This document shows, one piece after another, positions 11,048-30,883 of a stretch of 37,100 nucleotides of DNA (within the stretch, counting starts at the first letter, position 1; each line of letters starts with the position of its first letter). Position numbers and translations under genes: made by a program. Origin of the DNA: Oligoflexales bacterium (lineage in GTDB: Bacteria > Bdellovibrionota_B > Oligoflexia > Oligoflexales > JALZUQ01); contig JALZUO010000082.1 of the NCBI GenBank assembly GCA_023301565.1, positions 1-37,100 on the forward strand, in the 5' to 3' direction. The notes below the pieces were generated by a model. The model ran no database searches. It saw only the letters and a program-made list of their open reading frames with translations, and was not told the DNA's origin.

Positions 11048-14000
11048 CTACATGTTGCGGCGGTACTTTCCACCAAGCTTGTACATGGTTTCTGTTATCT
11101 GACCCAAAGAGGCGTAGCGAACAGTGTGCATAAGCTCTGCAAAGATATTGCCACCGCTTAGGATTACGCTTTTAAGCTTAGCGATCGCAGCTTTGCTTTT
11201 ATCTGGGTCTTGACCTTGAAAGCTTCTTAGCCTTTTAATCTGATCATCTTTTTCTGCATAGTCCGCTCGGATAAGTTCAATCTCAGGGGCAGCATAATCT
11301 TCTTTAAGGGTCTCGGGGTTTTTAAACGTATTGACACCGATAATCGGAAGGTCACCTGTATCTTTAAGCGTCTCGTAGTAAAGGCTCTCTTCTTGAATCT
11401 TACTGCGTTGATACTGGCTTTCCATGGCACCTAACACTCCACCCCTGCTGGAGATGCTTCTAAATTCTTTTAGAACCGCTGCTTCGACAATGTCCGTGAG
11501 CTGATCTAAAAAGTAGGAGCCCTGGTTTATGTTTTCACACTGGTTTGGGCCAAACTCTTTGTCGATGATCATTTGAATGGCAATTGCTTGCCTTACACTG
11601 GCTTCAGTTGGTGTGGTGATGGCTTCATCAAAAGCGTTGGTGTGCAGCGAGTTGCAGTTGTCATAAAAGGCAATAAGTGCCTGTAGCGTGGTCCGGATAT
11701 CGTTGAACGTCATCTCTTGTGCGTGCAGCGATCGCCCGCTTGTCTGGATGTGATATTTAAGCTTTTGGCTGCGAGCATCTCCTTTGTAAAGGTCGCGGAT
11801 AGCGACGGCCCAAATGCGCCTGGCTACCCTGCCAAGTACGGCGTATTCGGCGTCTAGTCCGTTGCTAAAGAAGAAACTTAGATTGGGTGCGAAGTCTTCG
11901 ATCTTCATCCCACGGCTACGGTAGTACTCCACAAAGGTAAAACCATTTGCCAGAGTTAGTGCTAGCTGCGTGATCGGGTTCGCGCCGGCTTCTGCAATGT
12001 GATAGCCGCTAATTGAAACACTGTAATAGTTGCGGACGTTCTCTTCGATAAAATACTCTTGCACATCACCCATAAGCTTTAGGGCAAACTCGGTGCTAAA
12101 AATACAGGTGTTTTGCGCCTGGTCTTCTTTGAGGATATCTGCTTGGACGGTTCCGCGCACAGATTGTAGCGCCTGACTGTGGATGGCGTCTAGCTCTTCT
12201 GGGTTTGGCGCTTTTCCAGACTCTTTGGTGTGTTTGTCCACGAGCTGATCTATAGCGGTATTCATGAATAGAGCTAGAATGATCGGTGCAGGTCCGTTGA
12301 TGGTCATGCTCACGCTTGTCGACGGCGAACACAAATCAAAGCCTTTGTATAAAAGCTTCATATCCTCAAGCGTTGCGATGGAAACGCCGCTTTCTCCGAC
12401 TTTACCATAAATATCAAGGCGTTCATGCGGGTCCGCTCCATAAAGCGTGACGCTATCAAATGCTGTACTTAGCCTTTTTGCTTTGTCAGATTTTGTTAAA
12501 AAATGAAAGCGTTTGTTGGTACGCGCCGGCCCGCCCTCTCCCGCAAACATGCGCCTAGGACTTTCTCCGCGCCGCTTAAATGGAAACACGCCGGAGGTGT
12601 AAGGAAAACTTCCTGGGAAGTTTTCTTTGTAATAGTATTTTGCAATCTCCCCCCAGTCGCTGCTGAGAGGAAGCGCCACTCTTGGAAGCTTGCTCCCTGA
12701 GATGGTTTCAAACTGCGTCGAGACCTTTACGGTTTTGTCGCGTACCTTATAGCTGTAGCTTTCGCCCGCATATTTTTCTTGGGCTTCATTCCATGCGGTT
12801 AAAAAGGCGTGAAGATCTGGGTCTAAATCATCTAGCTTTTCACTTAATTTTGCATCTAGCTGATTGCCTAGATCCTTGCTTTTTAAATCAGCAATCACTT
12901 TTTTAAACGACATGGCAAGGCCAGCGGTCTTTGCCTGCTCTTCACCTTTCTGGTGATACTCTTCAATGCAATTTGCAATTTCACTGAGGTACTGGCTGCG
13001 GTGCCCGGGGATCACTGAGTCTCGGTAGGTAGACTCTTTTGCTAGTTTGCGCTCTGTGTCAGGCTTAAATCTTTCACTTTTATAAAAGCTGTTCAGTCTT
13101 TCGGATAGGGCTGCATACAAGCCGTTGACGCCATCATCGTCAAAGCGGCTAGCAATGGTTCCGTAGACTGGGTAGCTGTCTTCTGAGCCTCGTTCGCCCT
13201 TAAACCGGCTTCTTCGGATCACGGTTTGCACGTCACGTAGGGCGTCAGGCGAGCGCTGTCGTTCGTACTTATTGATAGCAATCAAATCTGCAAAATCAAG
13301 CATGTCAATTTTTTCAAGCTGCGACGGAGCACCAAATTCGGCTGTCATCACATACAAGCTGATGTTTGACACGTCGAGAATTCCCGTGTCACCTTGACCG
13401 ATACCGCTTGTTTCAAAAATCAGAAAGTCAAAATCGTATTCTTGCATAATAGCAAGTGCGTCTAGACCAATGTTGTTCAGCTCTTTTCCAGAGCCTCTAG
13501 TCGCAAAACTTCGGATAAAAATTTGTTTGTCGTTTGCAGCACTATTCATGCGGATACGATCGCCCAAAAGCGCCCCGCCAGATTTTTTCTTGGACGGGTC
13601 GACACATATTACGCCGATCTGCGCGTCTGGATGGTCCATTGCAAAACGCATGAGGATTTCATCGGTCAGACTACTTTTACCTGCTCCACCCGTGCCGGTG
13701 ATTCCTACGACAGGGATTTTAAAGCTTTCCTTGTCTTTGAATTTAGTGCTTTTTTCTTCTTTGCCAAGTTCTAACAGGCTGAGCCGGCGAGCCAGGCTAC
13801 GTTTCCAGTCTTTTGCATCTAGACCGGTTTCATGAATAAAGTCGGACTCTTTTAAGATCGTACCTATGATCCCAGGCAGACCCAGGCGCTGGCCATCTTC
13901 AGGGCTAAATATACGGGTGATGCCCCTGCCATGCAGAAGCTCAATCTCCTTGGCGACAATGACTCCGCCGCCACCGCCAAATATTTTAATGTGCTCTCCA

Positions 14001-14311
14001 TGGTTTTGATCAAGAAGCTCACGGATATAAGAGAAGTACTCTACATGGCCACCTTGGTAGCTAGAGATGCAAATAGCCTGCACGTCTTCTTGTAGAGCCG
14101 CAGAAACTACCTCAGCCGCTGTTCTGTTGTGGCCAAGATGAATGACTTCGGCGCCTCTGTCCTGGAGTAGGCGGCGCATAATGTTGATACTTACATCGTG
14201 ACCGTCAAAAAGAGCTGCGGCCGTTACAAAGCGAATTTTATTTTTAGGTAGATAATTTTGGAGAGCTTCAATCTCTGAGGCCTCCGGTTTGCTTTTAGGA
14301 ATGCCCGGCAT
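11048..14311 (-). CDS. icmF: Fused isobutyryl-CoA mutase (IcmF)
   Basis: 1087 aa. IcmF interconverts isobutyryl-CoA and n-butyryl-CoA with adenosylcobalamin; some members act on isovaleryl/pivalyl-CoA. Domain order is diagnostic. An N-terminal B12-binding domain (about 25-150) has axial-ligand His38 in DGHDVSINIMRR and GGGGGVI. A MeaB-like G-protein chaperone domain (about 200-440) has P-loop GTGGAGKSS (206-214) and INKYERQRSPDA. The C-terminal mutase barrel has YSVSISGYHIAEAGANP. AAAGGG lies 6 nt before the ATG. The full length and all motifs are present, so it should be functional. It follows murJ by 36 nt. Together with etfBA in this window it points to branched or short-chain acyl-CoA metabolism and a need for B12. 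Confidence 0.96.
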   Translation of the reverse strand: MPGIPKSKPEASEIEALQNYLPKNKIRFVTAAALFDGHDVSINIMRRLLQDRGAEVIHLGHNRTAAEVVSAALQEDVQAICISSYQGGHVEYFSYIRELLDQNHGEHIKIFGGGGGVIVAKEIELLHGRGITRIFSPEDGQRLGLPGIIGTILKESDFIHETGLDAKDWKRSLARRLSLLELGKEEKSTKFKDKESFKIPVVGITGTGGAGKSSLTDEILMRFAMDHPDAQIGVICVDPSKKKSGGALLGDRIRMNSAANDKQIFIRSFATRGSGKELNNIGLDALAIMQEYDFDFLIFETSGIGQGDTGILDVSNISLYVMTAEFGAPSQLEKIDMLDFADLIAINKYERQRSPDALRDVQTVIRRSRFKGERGSEDSYPVYGTIASRFDDDGVNGLYAALSERLNSFYKSERFKPDTERKLAKESTYRDSVIPGHRSQYLSEIANCIEEYHQKGEEQAKTAGLAMSFKKVIADLKSKDLGNQLDAKLSEKLDDLDPDLHAFLTAWNEAQEKYAGESYSYKVRDKTVKVSTQFETISGSKLPRVALPLSSDWGEIAKYYYKENFPGSFPYTSGVFPFKRRGESPRRMFAGEGGPARTNKRFHFLTKSDKAKRLSTAFDSVTLYGADPHERLDIYGKVGESGVSIATLEDMKLLYKGFDLCSPSTSVSMTINGPAPIILALFMNTAIDQLVDKHTKESGKAPNPEELDAIHSQALQSVRGTVQADILKEDQAQNTCIFSTEFALKLMGDVQEYFIEENVRNYYSVSISGYHIAEAGANPITQLALTLANGFTFVEYYRSRGMKIEDFAPNLSFFFSNGLDAEYAVLGRVARRIWAVAIRDLYKGDARSQKLKYHIQTSGRSLHAQEMTFNDIRTTLQALIAFYDNCNSLHTNAFDEAITTPTEASVRQAIAIQMIIDKEFGPNQCENINQGSYFLDQLTDIVEAAVLKEFRSISSRGGVLGAMESQYQRSKIQEESLYYETLKDTGDLPIIGVNTFKNPETLKEDYAAPEIELIRADYAEKDDQIKRLRSFQGQDPDKSKAAIAKLKSVILSGGNIFAELMHTVRYASLGQITETMYKLGGKYRRNM

Positions 14312-21695: not shown

Positions 21696-22583
21696 TTGAG
21701 TGACTCTCTCAATCAGGTTCAAAGGCCGGGGCTTTCTGCTAAGTGCAAGGTAGGAAACGTTCCATTCTTCGAGCGCGATTTTAAAGTATTTCGTTTGCAA
21801 GGATTTTCCATCGGTGGCGTGCAGACAAGCTGGCGAATACCCTCTTTAAAAGCCATCTTTGATATTGGCGCCCACCCTTTTGAGTTTCATAACAGCAGCC
21901 ACCTTTTTTTGTCTCATAGGCATTTAGATCACGTGCAGGGTATTATCCCTCTTGCGTCGACCCGGAGGCTTCAAAACCAAGGGCCTCTTGTGGTTTACGG
22001 TCTACCCCCTGTTGTCGAAGCCGCAAAGAAGCTTCTTGAAGGCGCTCGCCTTACTGGGAGCGGACTATGCGAAATTGAATGGAACCTCGTGGATATAGGG
22101 AACCAAATTAGCTTAGGCCCAGAGTTTCAGGTTAGGCCTGTGCAGACTTTTCACTCGGTCCCTTCTTGTGGATATCTAGTGGAAAAAAAATCTAAATCTC
22201 TTAAATCAGAGTACGCAGGTTTGTCTGGCCAAGAGTTAGGGGCTTTGCGTAAAAGTGGCAGGCAGCTAGAAAACCTTGCAACAAAGCCAGTTGTGTTTTT
22301 TACGCTAGACACGAGCATGGAAGTCTTTAAAGAAAACAAGTTTTTAATGACTGTACCTACAGTCGTAACGGAATGTACTTTTTACTGTGCAGGCACCAAA
22401 GACAAAGCCAAAGAGCTCGAACATATTCATGTCGAAGCTCTAGCAGATCACTTTAAAAAGCATTTTCAGGGTGAGACCCTGGTGCTTACTCACCATAGTC
22501 CGCGCTACTCTGTAGAGGAAATGCAAGAAACCGTACAAAAGCTTTTTGCCGATGCGTGGTTTGAAGTGGTTTTGTGGGTGTAA
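21696..22583 (+). CDS. MBL-fold hydrolase resembling short RNase Z
   Basis: 295 aa. The metal motif is SHRHLDH (H74-x-H76-x-D78-H79). Further ligands are likely in TFHSVPSCGYLVE, FTLDTSME and LTHHSPRYS. The plan (FDIGAHPFEF...LFLSHRHLDHVQGI...ASTRR) resembles plant-type short tRNase Z, which trims tRNA 3' ends. All tRNAs in this window encode CCA, so a tRNA role is not implied. The only start in range is TTG at 21696, with a weak ribosome site, 10 nt after msrB. Its last 23 bp are repeated at 23169-23191 beyond the pilin gene. Confidence 0.82.
   Translation: MSDSLNQVQRPGLSAKCKVGNVPFFERDFKVFRLQGFSIGGVQTSWRIPSLKAIFDIGAHPFEFHNSSHLFLSHRHLDHVQGIIPLASTRRLQNQGPLVVYGLPPVVEAAKKLLEGARLTGSGLCEIEWNLVDIGNQISLGPEFQVRPVQTFHSVPSCGYLVEKKSKSLKSEYAGLSGQELGALRKSGRQLENLATKPVVFFTLDTSMEVFKENKFLMTVPTVVTECTFYCAGTKDKAKELEHIHVEALADHFKKHFQGETLVLTHHSPRYSVEEMQETVQKLFADAWFEVVLWV
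22561..22583. repeat. 23-bp direct repeat, copy 1 (end of the RNase Z-like gene)
   Basis: Begins TTGAAGTGGTTTTGTGGG and ends GTAA, encoding the last codons and stop of the hydrolase. It matches 23169-23191 at 22 of 23 positions (T22579 versus C23187). Confidence 0.9.
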
Positions 22584-22602
22584 CTAAAATAAGGGAAGTT
22601 TG

Positions 22603-23076
22603 TTAGTAAGGTGTTTGGTTTGTCGTTCCTTGTAGCTTGAAGAACTGCACTCCAAGTTCATTGCTATTTAGAGATAATGAATCTAGCGAGTTTGAATTGA
22701 TTCCTGCTGGATACCTTCCACCTACGCGAAGGTTGTCAGAATTTGCTGGAACATCGGGGCTAGAGTTTCCTGTGATAAAAAACTCAAAACGAGTTTTTTC
22801 AGGTACTTTGACCAAGAGCCCGAGAGTGTTTATGTTCACCGCTCCTAAAGCTCCGCCGGATGTAAGCGGTGATGCGCTGTTTTCTATCCGAAACAGCGCA
22901 ATGCTTTCTTTTATCGAAGAAACCATTTCGATCCCCTCTGTTAATATTGTTTTTTGTTGAAATTGCTCAAATTTAGGTAGGGCTAGTGTCGCTAGAATAG
23001 AGATAATCGCGACTACGACCATGAGTTCGATAAGGGTAAAGCCAGCCATTGCTTGTTGGTTTTTTTTGACGGTCAT
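22603..23076 (-). CDS. Type IV pilin-like protein
   Basis: 157 aa, with a strong GGGGAGG before the ATG. A short 12-residue leader ends at the prepilin peptidase site G12-F13, followed by TLIELMVVVAIISILATLALP with Glu at mature position 5. It is a class III signal of PilA or a major pseudopilin. The C-terminal body is a small globular domain without a Cys pair. A TATATA-18-TTGAAG promoter lies just upstream. No other pilus gene is nearby. The gene and its promoter are bracketed by a 23-bp direct repeat, implying a cassette. It is inferred to be an orphan pilin used by an assembly system elsewhere. Confidence 0.93.
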   Translation of the reverse strand: MTVKKNQQAMAGFTLIELMVVVAIISILATLALPKFEQFQQKTILTEGIEMVSSIKESIALFRIENSASPLTSGGALGAVNINTLGLLVKVPEKTRFEFFITGNSSPDVPANSDNLRVGGRYPAGINSNSLDSLSLNSNELGVQFFKLQGTTNQTPY

Positions 23077-23097
23077 TAGAGCCTCCCCTTTTTTCTA

Positions 23098-23127
23098 TAT
23101 ATACATCTTATCGGTCTTTTTCTTCAA
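23098..23127 (-). promoter_or_regulatory. Pilin gene promoter
   Basis: On the minus strand, TTGAAG (-35, 23127-23122) and TATATA (-10, 23103-23098) lie 18 bp apart, about 22 bp before the ATG. CCGATAAG lies in the spacer (23114-23107), and the same 8-mer occurs before the lipoprotein gene at 23992. Confidence 0.55.
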
Positions 23128-23168
23128 AAAGCTAAGCTCGTCGATAAAAGCATAATAATACGCAAGGC

Positions 23169-23191
23169 TTGAAGTGGTTTTGTGGGCGTAA
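23169..23191. repeat. 23-bp direct repeat, copy 2
   Basis: Second copy of the 3' end of the RNase Z-like gene, 608 bp from copy 1. The segment between copies (22584-23168) holds the pilin gene and its promoter and nothing else. Confidence 0.9.
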
Positions 23192-23194
23192 AAT

Positions 23195-23992
23195 TTAATA
23201 GTACTCAGGGACGATCACCTGGAATCCGTCGCCGTTGTCTATGGTTTTTATTCCATAGTTTGCAGGGGCTTGAAAGGTAATGGGTTGTTGGGTATGAGCT
23301 TGTGGAGTTAGAGGCTGTTGTGAGGCGTTTGCAAGAAAGTGCTGCCAATCCCCCGTAGAACGATAGTTTGCATCTACGGCTCTTTGCAATGCATCCAGGT
23401 CACCTTGGGTGAGTTGCTGTTTTGAAGCGTCTGTAGCGCCCATGATTTCCCTGTTGTCTTGCCGTGGAGCCCCTGGAGCTCCCACGCAATTAGCACTAGC
23501 TTTATCTGTGTATTGATCACACAAACCAAAACTATGCCCAAGCTCATGAAGGAGCATTGCATCTAAATAGGCCCCTGACACCTGTGAGCTTATTTCAATC
23601 GTGCCATCATCAAATCGGCCATTATCAGGCTCGCCTAGATTGAGTCGATAGATATTGCAGGCTGGCGAGCCTTGGCATCTATTTATTGCGGTTAAATTAA
23701 TTCTTAAGTTAGACCCGGTATTGCAAGGGTTAATGTTTAAATGTCCGTTCCTACCGATGGGGGTAAGCCATTTGGCTACCGCTCGTTCTGCCGCTTGGAT
23801 TTGGTCTTGCCTTTGCCCACAAAACTCTAAGGACTCACCTGGCCTAAGGCTCATAATGTTCGCATGAGTTCCAAAGCCTGTGTGTAGGTCACCCCTTAGC
23901 CCAGATTCACTAGAGCTAATTTTGCAAGAAGAGAGGCTAGCTAAAAATGCTAACAATAGAAAAATATAATTTTTGAGTGACGGGTTTCTCAC
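23195..23992 (-). CDS. Lipoprotein zinc metalloprotease (HExxHxxGxxD type)
   Basis: 265 aa from GTG 23992, with GGAG 6 nt upstream. The lipoprotein signal is NYIFLLLAFLASLSSC with lipidated Cys23. The catalytic motif LLHELGHSFGLCD has the HExxH zinc site, with Gly and a third-ligand Asp as in snapalysin-like metzincins. QVSGAYLDAMLLHELGH before it is typical of the active helix. Two Cys pairs may form disulfides. It would be tethered to the outer or inner membrane and cleave proteins or peptides outside the cytoplasm. The C-terminal tail is Gln/Pro rich. The gene is convergent with copy 2 of the repeat. Confidence 0.87.
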   Translation of the reverse strand: MRNPSLKNYIFLLLAFLASLSSCKISSSESGLRGDLHTGFGTHANIMSLRPGESLEFCGQRQDQIQAAERAVAKWLTPIGRNGHLNINPCNTGSNLRINLTAINRCQGSPACNIYRLNLGEPDNGRFDDGTIEISSQVSGAYLDAMLLHELGHSFGLCDQYTDKASANCVGAPGAPRQDNREIMGATDASKQQLTQGDLDALQRAVDANYRSTGDWQHFLANASQQPLTPQAHTQQPITFQAPANYGIKTIDNGDGFQVIVPEYY

Positions 23993-28806: not shown

Positions 28807-30399
28807 TCAATCAGCCTTTCTGTTGCTGCTTTCTCTAAGTACTTGATCTAAGGCTTCGAAAAGAGCTTTTTTACCGCAGCCTTTAGTTATTAGTTTGTTT
28901 GCTCCAGCATTCGCAGCTATATCTTTAAACTCTCGCTGTTCATCTGCCGTATAAATAACGATAGGAACAGGCACGTTGTTTTTCGTTTGGATCTTTTTTG
29001 CCCTAATCTCTTCGCAAGTAGCAAAGCCGTCTAACATCGGCATTTGCCTATCCAATACAATGAGATCGTATTGTTTTTTGTCAACCACCTCTAGTGCTGT
29101 TTTTCCACTGGTAACGACGTTTACTTTGTGTCCCTCGTTTTCCAAAATTCTTTGAAATAGCAGGCAGTTAGCCGGGTCATCGTCTGCCATCAATATGTTC
29201 AAAGGGTTTGCAGCTAGCTTAGAGATGTGGGTAGGTATCTGAAATACTTCAGCGCCTTGAGGCTGAGCGTTCTGCTCAGACCCTGCCTTTTCCAGCCTAA
29301 GGCTAAACTTGAATGTAGACCCTATGCCAAGTTTTGACTCTAGGCTCAGTGTGCCTCCCAGAGCTTGCAAGAGGCTCTTTGTGATTGCTAGCCCCAACCC
29401 AACGCCGCGGACATGCTGTACGCTGCTGTTTTGAATTTGATTGAATTGCTCAAAGATCCGGCTTTGGTCCGCTTTTGCAATGCCAATGCCACTGTCAGAA
29501 ACCTCAGCTGCAAACCTACACTGGCCATTTTCAGCGGGGCTCAGCTCAACCGCTATCTTCACGTAGCCTGTTTCCGTAAACTTAATGGCGTTTCCAACTA
29601 GGTTCGTGAAGACTTGATAAAGTTTTAGCTCATCTACAGACACCATTTCAACATCATCAAAAAATGTTTCAAAATGCAGTTTCAGCCCTTTACGTGCAGC
29701 CAAGGGGGCAAGAGCAGCGTGAAGTTTAGAAAAGAACTCTGGCAATAAAACAGGTCTTGGGTGCAGAGTTTGATTTCCGGTTTCCAGCTTTGAAAAGTCC
29801 ATGGTTTGATAGACTATACTCTGCAGGTGTTTCATAGCCCCTTCGCCTATTTTAAGCCAGTCTTTTAGTTTGCTTACTGACTTTTCTGCCTTCATTTCAT
29901 TGAAGGTCTCTTGCATGGCAACAAGTGAGTTTTTGATCTCATGCGAAACACTTGCAAAGCCATCCAAAAAATTTGAGCGTTGCTGGCTTTGTAACTCGAC
30001 CGAGTGCTGCAAGGCTTCTACTAAAAGCTTAAGGTTATTTCTGCTTTGTTGGACATCAAATATTTGGACAGCTTTTTCACTAGAATCTTTTAGAAACACA
30101 ATGTGCTGATTGTTTTCAAATACAATCAAAATATCAGCATAGACTTTTGCGTCAAGCCTAACGTGTTCAAGGAAAAGAGGCTCAGCTTCTACAATGTTTG
30201 CATCTAAAAGACCAAACAGTGCAAGCACGTGCTCTTCAGTGGCCTGTCCTACCTGTGGTTTTTTAACACCAAAGTAGTCAAAGTCGCCGCCCCATTGAAC
30301 AAGCGCTCCTTTTTTGTCTGTGATTAAATAGCAAGCTTTCCATTCAGTGCCAAAAAACTCTAAGAATTTTTCTCGAATCTCAAAAGGAAAATTAAGCAT
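28807..30399 (-). CDS. Soluble hybrid histidine kinase with C-terminal receiver
   Basis: 530 aa. Residues 1-110 are a PAS-like sensor (ACYLITDKKGALVQWGG... YADILIVFENNQHIVFLKD), with no membrane segment. The kinase core has His153 (FASVSHEIKNS), N box NLVGNAIKFTE, G1 DSGIGIA (302-308), F box IFEQF and G2 RGVGLGLAIT. The receiver (about 400-525) has D406-408, phospho-acceptor Asp450 (LIVLDRQMP), T484 and K506. Phosphate would pass His153 to Asp450 and on to an unseen partner. It overlaps the GTPase gene by 8 bp, so the two are probably made together. The sensor may read the GTPase state (inference). Confidence 0.92.
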   Translation of the reverse strand: MLNFPFEIREKFLEFFGTEWKACYLITDKKGALVQWGGDFDYFGVKKPQVGQATEEHVLALFGLLDANIVEAEPLFLEHVRLDAKVYADILIVFENNQHIVFLKDSSEKAVQIFDVQQSRNNLKLLVEALQHSVELQSQQRSNFLDGFASVSHEIKNSLVAMQETFNEMKAEKSVSKLKDWLKIGEGAMKHLQSIVYQTMDFSKLETGNQTLHPRPVLLPEFFSKLHAALAPLAARKGLKLHFETFFDDVEMVSVDELKLYQVFTNLVGNAIKFTETGYVKIAVELSPAENGQCRFAAEVSDSGIGIAKADQSRIFEQFNQIQNSSVQHVRGVGLGLAITKSLLQALGGTLSLESKLGIGSTFKFSLRLEKAGSEQNAQPQGAEVFQIPTHISKLAANPLNILMADDDPANCLLFQRILENEGHKVNVVTSGKTALEVVDKKQYDLIVLDRQMPMLDGFATCEEIRAKKIQTKNNVPVPIVIYTADEQREFKDIAANAGANKLITKGCGKKALFEALDQVLRESSNRKAD

Positions 30400-30883
30400 G
30401 CAAACCCACCATCCTTTTTGTTAGGTCGCTAAAACTGTTTTCGACATTGTTCCCAGTTTTTGCACTCGTCTCTAGAATTGGAATGTTCCAGTCTTTGATC
30501 CGTTTGTAATCAGCTTCTGTTAGCTGCCAAGCATCCTTCAAGTCTGCTTTGTTGATTAAAAGAATCGACGGTTTTGCGTCGTCATTTTTTTTTATTGTTT
30601 CTTCTACAAAATCAATGGTCGAAGGCCTAGTGCCGTCGATAACATACAGAAATCCATGTGAGCCCCTGCTGTAGGTGCCAATCATCCCGCGGCTGTCGCT
30701 ACCACCAGCTATGTCCCAGATCAGTAGGTCCGAAGAAATATCCCCAACGGTCACATTTTTTTTATCTATTTTTACTCCAACTGTTGTAAGGTAGCTTTCC
30801 GAAAACACGCTACTTACGTACTGAGAGACAAGGCTGGTTTTGCCCACAGAAAATTGGCCAACCATACACACTTTAAATTTCAT
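30392..30883 (-). CDS. Ras-like small GTPase (Rab/MglA-type)
   Basis: 163 aa, one G domain with GAGG-type site 4 nt before the ATG. G1 is GQFSVGKTS (9-17), G2 the switch-I TTVGVKI (33-39), G3 WDIAGG (56-61), G4 NKAD (111-114) and G5 ETSAKTG (138-144). The Ras Gln61 position (AGQ) is Gly here, which should slow intrinsic hydrolysis and make the protein depend on a partner. No lipidation site or membrane anchor is present. It lies between the membrane protein gene (13 nt) and the hybrid kinase gene (8-bp overlap), which makes those two its likely regulator and effector. Confidence 0.93.
   Translation of the reverse strand: MKFKVCMVGQFSVGKTSLVSQYVSSVFSESYLTTVGVKIDKKNVTVGDISSDLLIWDIAGGSDSRGMIGTYSRGSHGFLYVIDGTRPSTIDFVEETIKKNDDAKPSILLINKADLKDAWQLTEADYKRIKDWNIPILETSAKTGNNVENSFSDLTKRMVGLHA

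Follow-up and report, generated by a model that had tools for sequence, protein, structure and literature searches.

How does a solitary type IV pilin gene come to lie between two direct copies of the 3' end of its neighbor? This question is raised by a locus of an Oligoflexales bacterium (Bdellovibrionota_B; Oligoflexia; Oligoflexales; JALZUQ01) that was studied in a window of 37,100 nt, the whole stretch of DNA analyzed, comprising positions 1 to 37,100 of the forward strand of contig JALZUO010000082.1 (C82) in assembly GCA_023301565.1. The source genome (G000) is a fragmented draft of 2,781,038 bases in 184 contigs and is 92% complete.

The pilin gene and its two neighbors

The pilin gene is enclosed by two convergent genes. 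On the plus strand, positions 21696-22583 encode a metallo-beta-lactamase-fold hydrolase with an SHRHLDH metal-binding motif and a match above cut-off to the Pfam family Lactamase_B_2 (2.2e-8). The protein also matched NCBIfam RNase_Z (2.2e-20), but with 72.9 bits it falls below the curated cut-off of 292.95, and for this reason we limit its name to RNase Z-like. A near relative of this gene was found neither in 58 genomes of the class nor in the GTDB contig collection. On the minus strand, positions 23195-23992 encode a zinc metalloprotease-like lipoprotein, the translation of which contains the lipobox LSSC and the motif HELGHSFGLCD. Since Pfam gave no match, the metalloprotease name rests on these motifs. 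Relatives with 40-46% identity are present in another family of the same order.

The pilin gene itself occupies positions 22603-23076 of the minus strand and encodes a protein of 157 amino acids. Its translation carries the N-terminal signal G-FTLIELMVVVAIISILATLALPKFEQFQQK, which corresponds to a prepilin peptidase signal of the form G-FTLxE, and a hydrophobic helix follows, as in type IV pilins. In agreement, the protein gave matches above cut-off to Pfam N_methyl (1.7e-7) and NCBIfam TIGR02532 (9.8e-8). The GC content of the gene is 42% as compared to 45% for the window. A consensus scan of the region detected no sigma-70 match on the minus strand. We found no phage matches for the pilin and no match in a viral contig collection, and matches in a plasmid collection covered the conserved N-terminal part only, so that a phage or plasmid origin was rejected. 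The variable part of the protein had no relative among the GTDB contigs.

Two further genes of the window deserve mention in their own right. At 11051-14311, a B12-binding domain, a MeaB-type GTPase and methylmalonyl-CoA mutase are fused in one IcmF-like gene, and at 30395-30883 a small Ras-family GTPase gene lies beside a gene for a histidine kinase/response regulator hybrid.

The direct repeat

A preliminary description of this DNA had reported 22 of 23 matching bases between positions 22561-22583 and 23169-23191. This was confirmed by sequence comparison of the window, and the match extends three bases further to the left, such that 22558-22583 (copy 1) and 23166-23191 (copy 2), spaced by 608 nt, are identical at 24 of 26 positions. 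As had likewise been stated, copy 1 is the very end of the RNase Z-like open reading frame: it comprises the last 26 bases including the TAA stop and encodes F-E-V-V-L-W-V-stop. Copy 2 is non-coding. It lies upstream of the pilin gene, about 90 bp from its start, and only 3 bp separate its end from the stop codon of the metalloprotease gene. The 582 bp between the 26-nt copies (22584-23165), presumed to be an inserted segment, have room for the pilin gene only, in line with the earlier statement that the 585 bp between the 23-bp copies hold this single gene, while the promoter that had also been placed there is putative; a recombinase is not encoded there. When the segment and one copy of the repeat are removed computationally, the junction reads ...TGGGTGTAA-AAT-TTA... 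and a compact convergent gene pair results, the stop codons of which are 3 bp apart.

The longest exact run common to both copies is 18 bases. The two differences are both transitions. Were copy 2 translated, each would replace an amino acid (F to L and V to A), which would suit a second copy that is free of constraint. Outside the 26 nt, gapped alignment of the 80-bp flanks was no better than that of shuffled sequences (upstream p=0.73, downstream p=0.60). The edges of the repeat are therefore sharp, and a longer degenerate duplication around it is unsupported. By inspection, the 26-mer has no inverted-repeat core, GTTRRRY box or palindrome, and Rfam gave no match at the repeat.

A chance match can be ruled out as the origin of the repeat, as the preliminary description had surmised. 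Allowing up to three mismatches, the 23-mer occurs at exactly two places in the whole assembly, which also excludes a common genomic repeat, a possibility that had been raised before. None of 100 shuffled windows contained a pair matching the repeat, and the expected number of direct pairs with 24 of 26 identities within 1 kb is 3.3e-5 for the window and 0.0024 for the genome. In addition, stretches sampled from the same genome, 324 kb altogether, served as background, with other pairs sorted by inspection. The only isolated direct-repeat pair with a score of at least 19 was the one that flanks the pilin gene; stronger pairs were confined to tandem arrays, repetitive proteins with internal repeats, and gene-family duplications. 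An assembly artefact at the repeat is unlikely because the exact run of 18 bp is presumably shorter than the usual assembly k-mers.

Pilin genes elsewhere in the genome and in the order

The genome contains 12 matches to the window pilin at E <= 0.001, mainly solitary genes that lie on different contigs and have conserved N-termini; about 11 other pilin-like genes are thus scattered over it. Six matches above cut-off to T2SSE-family ATPases, a family that spans type II secretion and type IV pilus systems, were also present. The subfamily of the window pilin has two members in the assembly, the second of which, at 39-497 of contig C119, is the closest paralogue with 65% identity at the amino acid and 68% at the DNA level. 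DNA similarity between the two ends at the open reading frame, the flanks are not shared and the neighboring genes differ. At the DNA level the two paralogues have diverged by 32%, as opposed to 8% for the two copies of the repeat, and hence the present C119 gene is no recent donor of the window pilin. The paralogue directly follows a GAGAA pentanucleotide tract at the start of C119 (L017:1-30), and the same tract is found at the end of contig C137 (L042:1500-1524) next to an Rrf2-like/SufB-like locus. These contigs may join at the tract, the length of which may be variable.

Some repetitive features of other stretches were recorded in passing. On C119, positions L043:6894-7312 form a long array rich in lysine, arginine and threonine (KRKTKRK-like), as in histone H1-like proteins, and L043:17465-19465 contains direct repeats that are about 989 bp apart, extend over up to 225 bp and belong to a tandemly arranged gene family whose 5' ends are conserved. 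An octanucleotide tandem tract (CACTTGCT/CACTAGCT) is located at the end of contig C79 (L059:1-120).

Nine other pilin genes of G000 have both flanks readable, and none of them has flanking direct repeats above background (scores of 7-10 versus 20 for the window pilin). This speaks for one event and not for a mobile pilin-cassette system. The picture was the same when 53 pilin-like genes from this genome and its relatives were tested: besides the window, flanking repeats scoring at least 20 were restricted to pilin clusters of G012, a genome of the same order, and repeat-flanked pilins as a rule are unsupported. In G012, tandem pilin units with similar intergenic parts are separated by conserved direct repeats, mostly of long (26-145 bp) intergenic sequence. 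Its stretches L100-L105 carry some ten genes for type IV pilins, several of which form neighboring units about 0.9 kb apart on short contigs. The N-terminal half of the encoded proteins is nearly constant and the C-terminal half is variable, and the similarity of the upstream regions, which reaches 88%, does not track that of the coding parts. We regard these clusters as candidates for a recombination-driven diversification of pilins.

A second genome of the family, G001, was compared. Its nine pilin genes adjoin other genes: within the sampled G000 stretches, no gene was found that adjoins pilin genes in both genomes, and the few G001 pilin neighbors that recur there lie away from pilin genes. 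As pilin genes of the two genomes have no adjoining gene in common in this sample, we suggest a turnover of lone pilin genes in this lineage.

Origin of the pilin segment

The simplest history of the locus is that a single pilin gene was inserted where the RNase Z-like gene ends, accompanied by a target duplication of about 26 bp, because the repeat greatly exceeds chance expectation and has sharp edges, copy 2 borders on the next stop codon and the two paralogues reside in unrelated neighborhoods. We assign this reading a probability of roughly 0.6. The ancestor would have carried the RNase Z-like gene (plus strand) and the metalloprotease lipoprotein gene (minus strand) as a convergent pair, their stop codons separated by 3 bp. 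A single pilin gene, together with short flanks, would then have landed where the RNase Z-like gene ends, and a target stretch of about 26 bp would have been doubled, so that the gene end was kept intact as copy 1 while a spare copy 2 came to lie on the far side; since then the copies would have diverged at two bases. As to mechanism, an illegitimate event appears most likely, in which a staggered break, or template switching during replication or repair, captured a pilin-bearing fragment, or in which a small circle was reinserted. The preliminary description had spoken of a pilin cassette that was inserted here or arose with a duplication of the gene end. Insertion with gene-end duplication holds up as the simplest history, while the term cassette overstates the case: the segment has no terminal repeats and no recombinase, the site has no further copy, and the other pilin genes are devoid of flanking repeats.

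Some points weigh against the insertion reading. A resident gene can also acquire direct repeats on its two sides, and the nine other readable pilin genes without such repeats give no support to pilins moving in this way as a rule. With the pilin gene already in place, local template switching or slippage could later have copied the RNase Z-like gene end and added it upstream of the pilin as copy 2. A short, sharp-ended repeat with nothing else in common fits a small templated insertion well, but this account leaves unexplained why only 3 bp lie between copy 2 and the stop codon of the metalloprotease gene, the natural convergent partner of copy 1, and we regard it as unlikely. A larger tandem duplication that comprised both gene end and pilin, with the second pilin lost afterwards, finds a parallel in the G012 clusters, where pilin genes likewise have direct repeats between them. 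However, the repeat of the window is the end of a foreign gene and sharing stops at 26 bp, whereas the G012 repeats are mostly long, intergenic and part of the cluster unit. Furthermore, the 3 bp that follow copy 2 up to the next stop codon hold no remnant of a second pilin, so that such a history is improbable.

Integrases often use, and restore, gene 3' ends. The repeat could accordingly be an attachment site at which a recombinase acted in trans, the pilin gene being a minimal non-autonomous passenger, and four Phage_integrase matches above the curated cut-off are indeed present in the genome. The locus resembles integrase-driven elements in having a direct repeat at a gene 3' end and in leaving that gene intact. 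It differs from them in its minimal size, in the absence of an integrase gene inside the segment and of any recombinase beside it, and in the lack of a second use of the site, which occurs nowhere else in the genome. Together with two mismatches in 26 positions and the missing inverted-repeat core noted on inspection, this leaves site-specific recombination with a low probability. Even less probable is that selection maintains both copies as a common regulatory or RNA element. The position of copy 2 relative to the pilin start is one where an activator could bind, but copy 1 belongs to a coding sequence, the genome has no third copy, also not in the surroundings of other pilin genes, and Rfam recognized nothing there.

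Comparison with known systems gave the following picture. A transposon or MITE is not indicated: terminal inverted repeats of the segment were not found, and there are no conserved ends in common with the C119 paralogue, as similarity stops at the open reading frame. An integron gene cassette is not indicated either, since inspection of the 26-mer revealed no GTTRRRY R-box or palindrome of an attC-type site. The closest counterpart is insertion with long target duplication, described for Helicobacter pylori (Nobusato et al. 2000, Gene 259:99; as cited in PMC1643837, PMC3031569, PMC3154945) and, according to these citing accounts, known from strain comparison and mostly from restriction-modification genes. 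As portrayed there, it shares with the pilin locus a gene between direct copies of an apparent host target without transposon ends, and repeats that exceed normal transposon target duplications (26 bp here, 24 of them identical). In contrast to the cases in these accounts, the cargo is a lone pilin gene and the repeat is only 26 bp long. Two features of the class, repeat length and a copy 1 that is the end of a host gene, are found at the pilin locus; the third would be a single-copy empty site in a relative, and the genomes searched yielded no near relative of the RNase Z-like gene that could mark such a site. In Arabidopsis, too, transposed genes lie between direct repeats, which are homologous to genic sequence at the target site, and reinsertion of circles has been proposed for these genes (PMC2869330). 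The resemblance lies in a single gene between direct repeats of genic target sequence; those cases, however, are eukaryotic, numerous and shown against orthologous empty sites, whereas here there is one case. It is plausible that the pilin locus is a small instance of gene movement of an already known type and not a new mobile element. That the lone pilins of the lineage were in general mobilized singly into gene ends by an uncharacterized process duplicating about 26 bp, which would have built the scattered repertoire, with most footprints decayed and that in the window being the latest, strikes us as a very long shot.

The pilin encoded at 22603-23076 probably adds one subunit variant to a scattered pilin repertoire. 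If the insertion is true, the locus would represent a clean single-gene case of how bacteria can spread pilin paralogues without the help of transposons, and its footprint, with two changes in 26 bp, can still be read. The pilin expansions in this order, with 12 pilin-like matches here and up to 21 in another genome, could diversify surface attachment.
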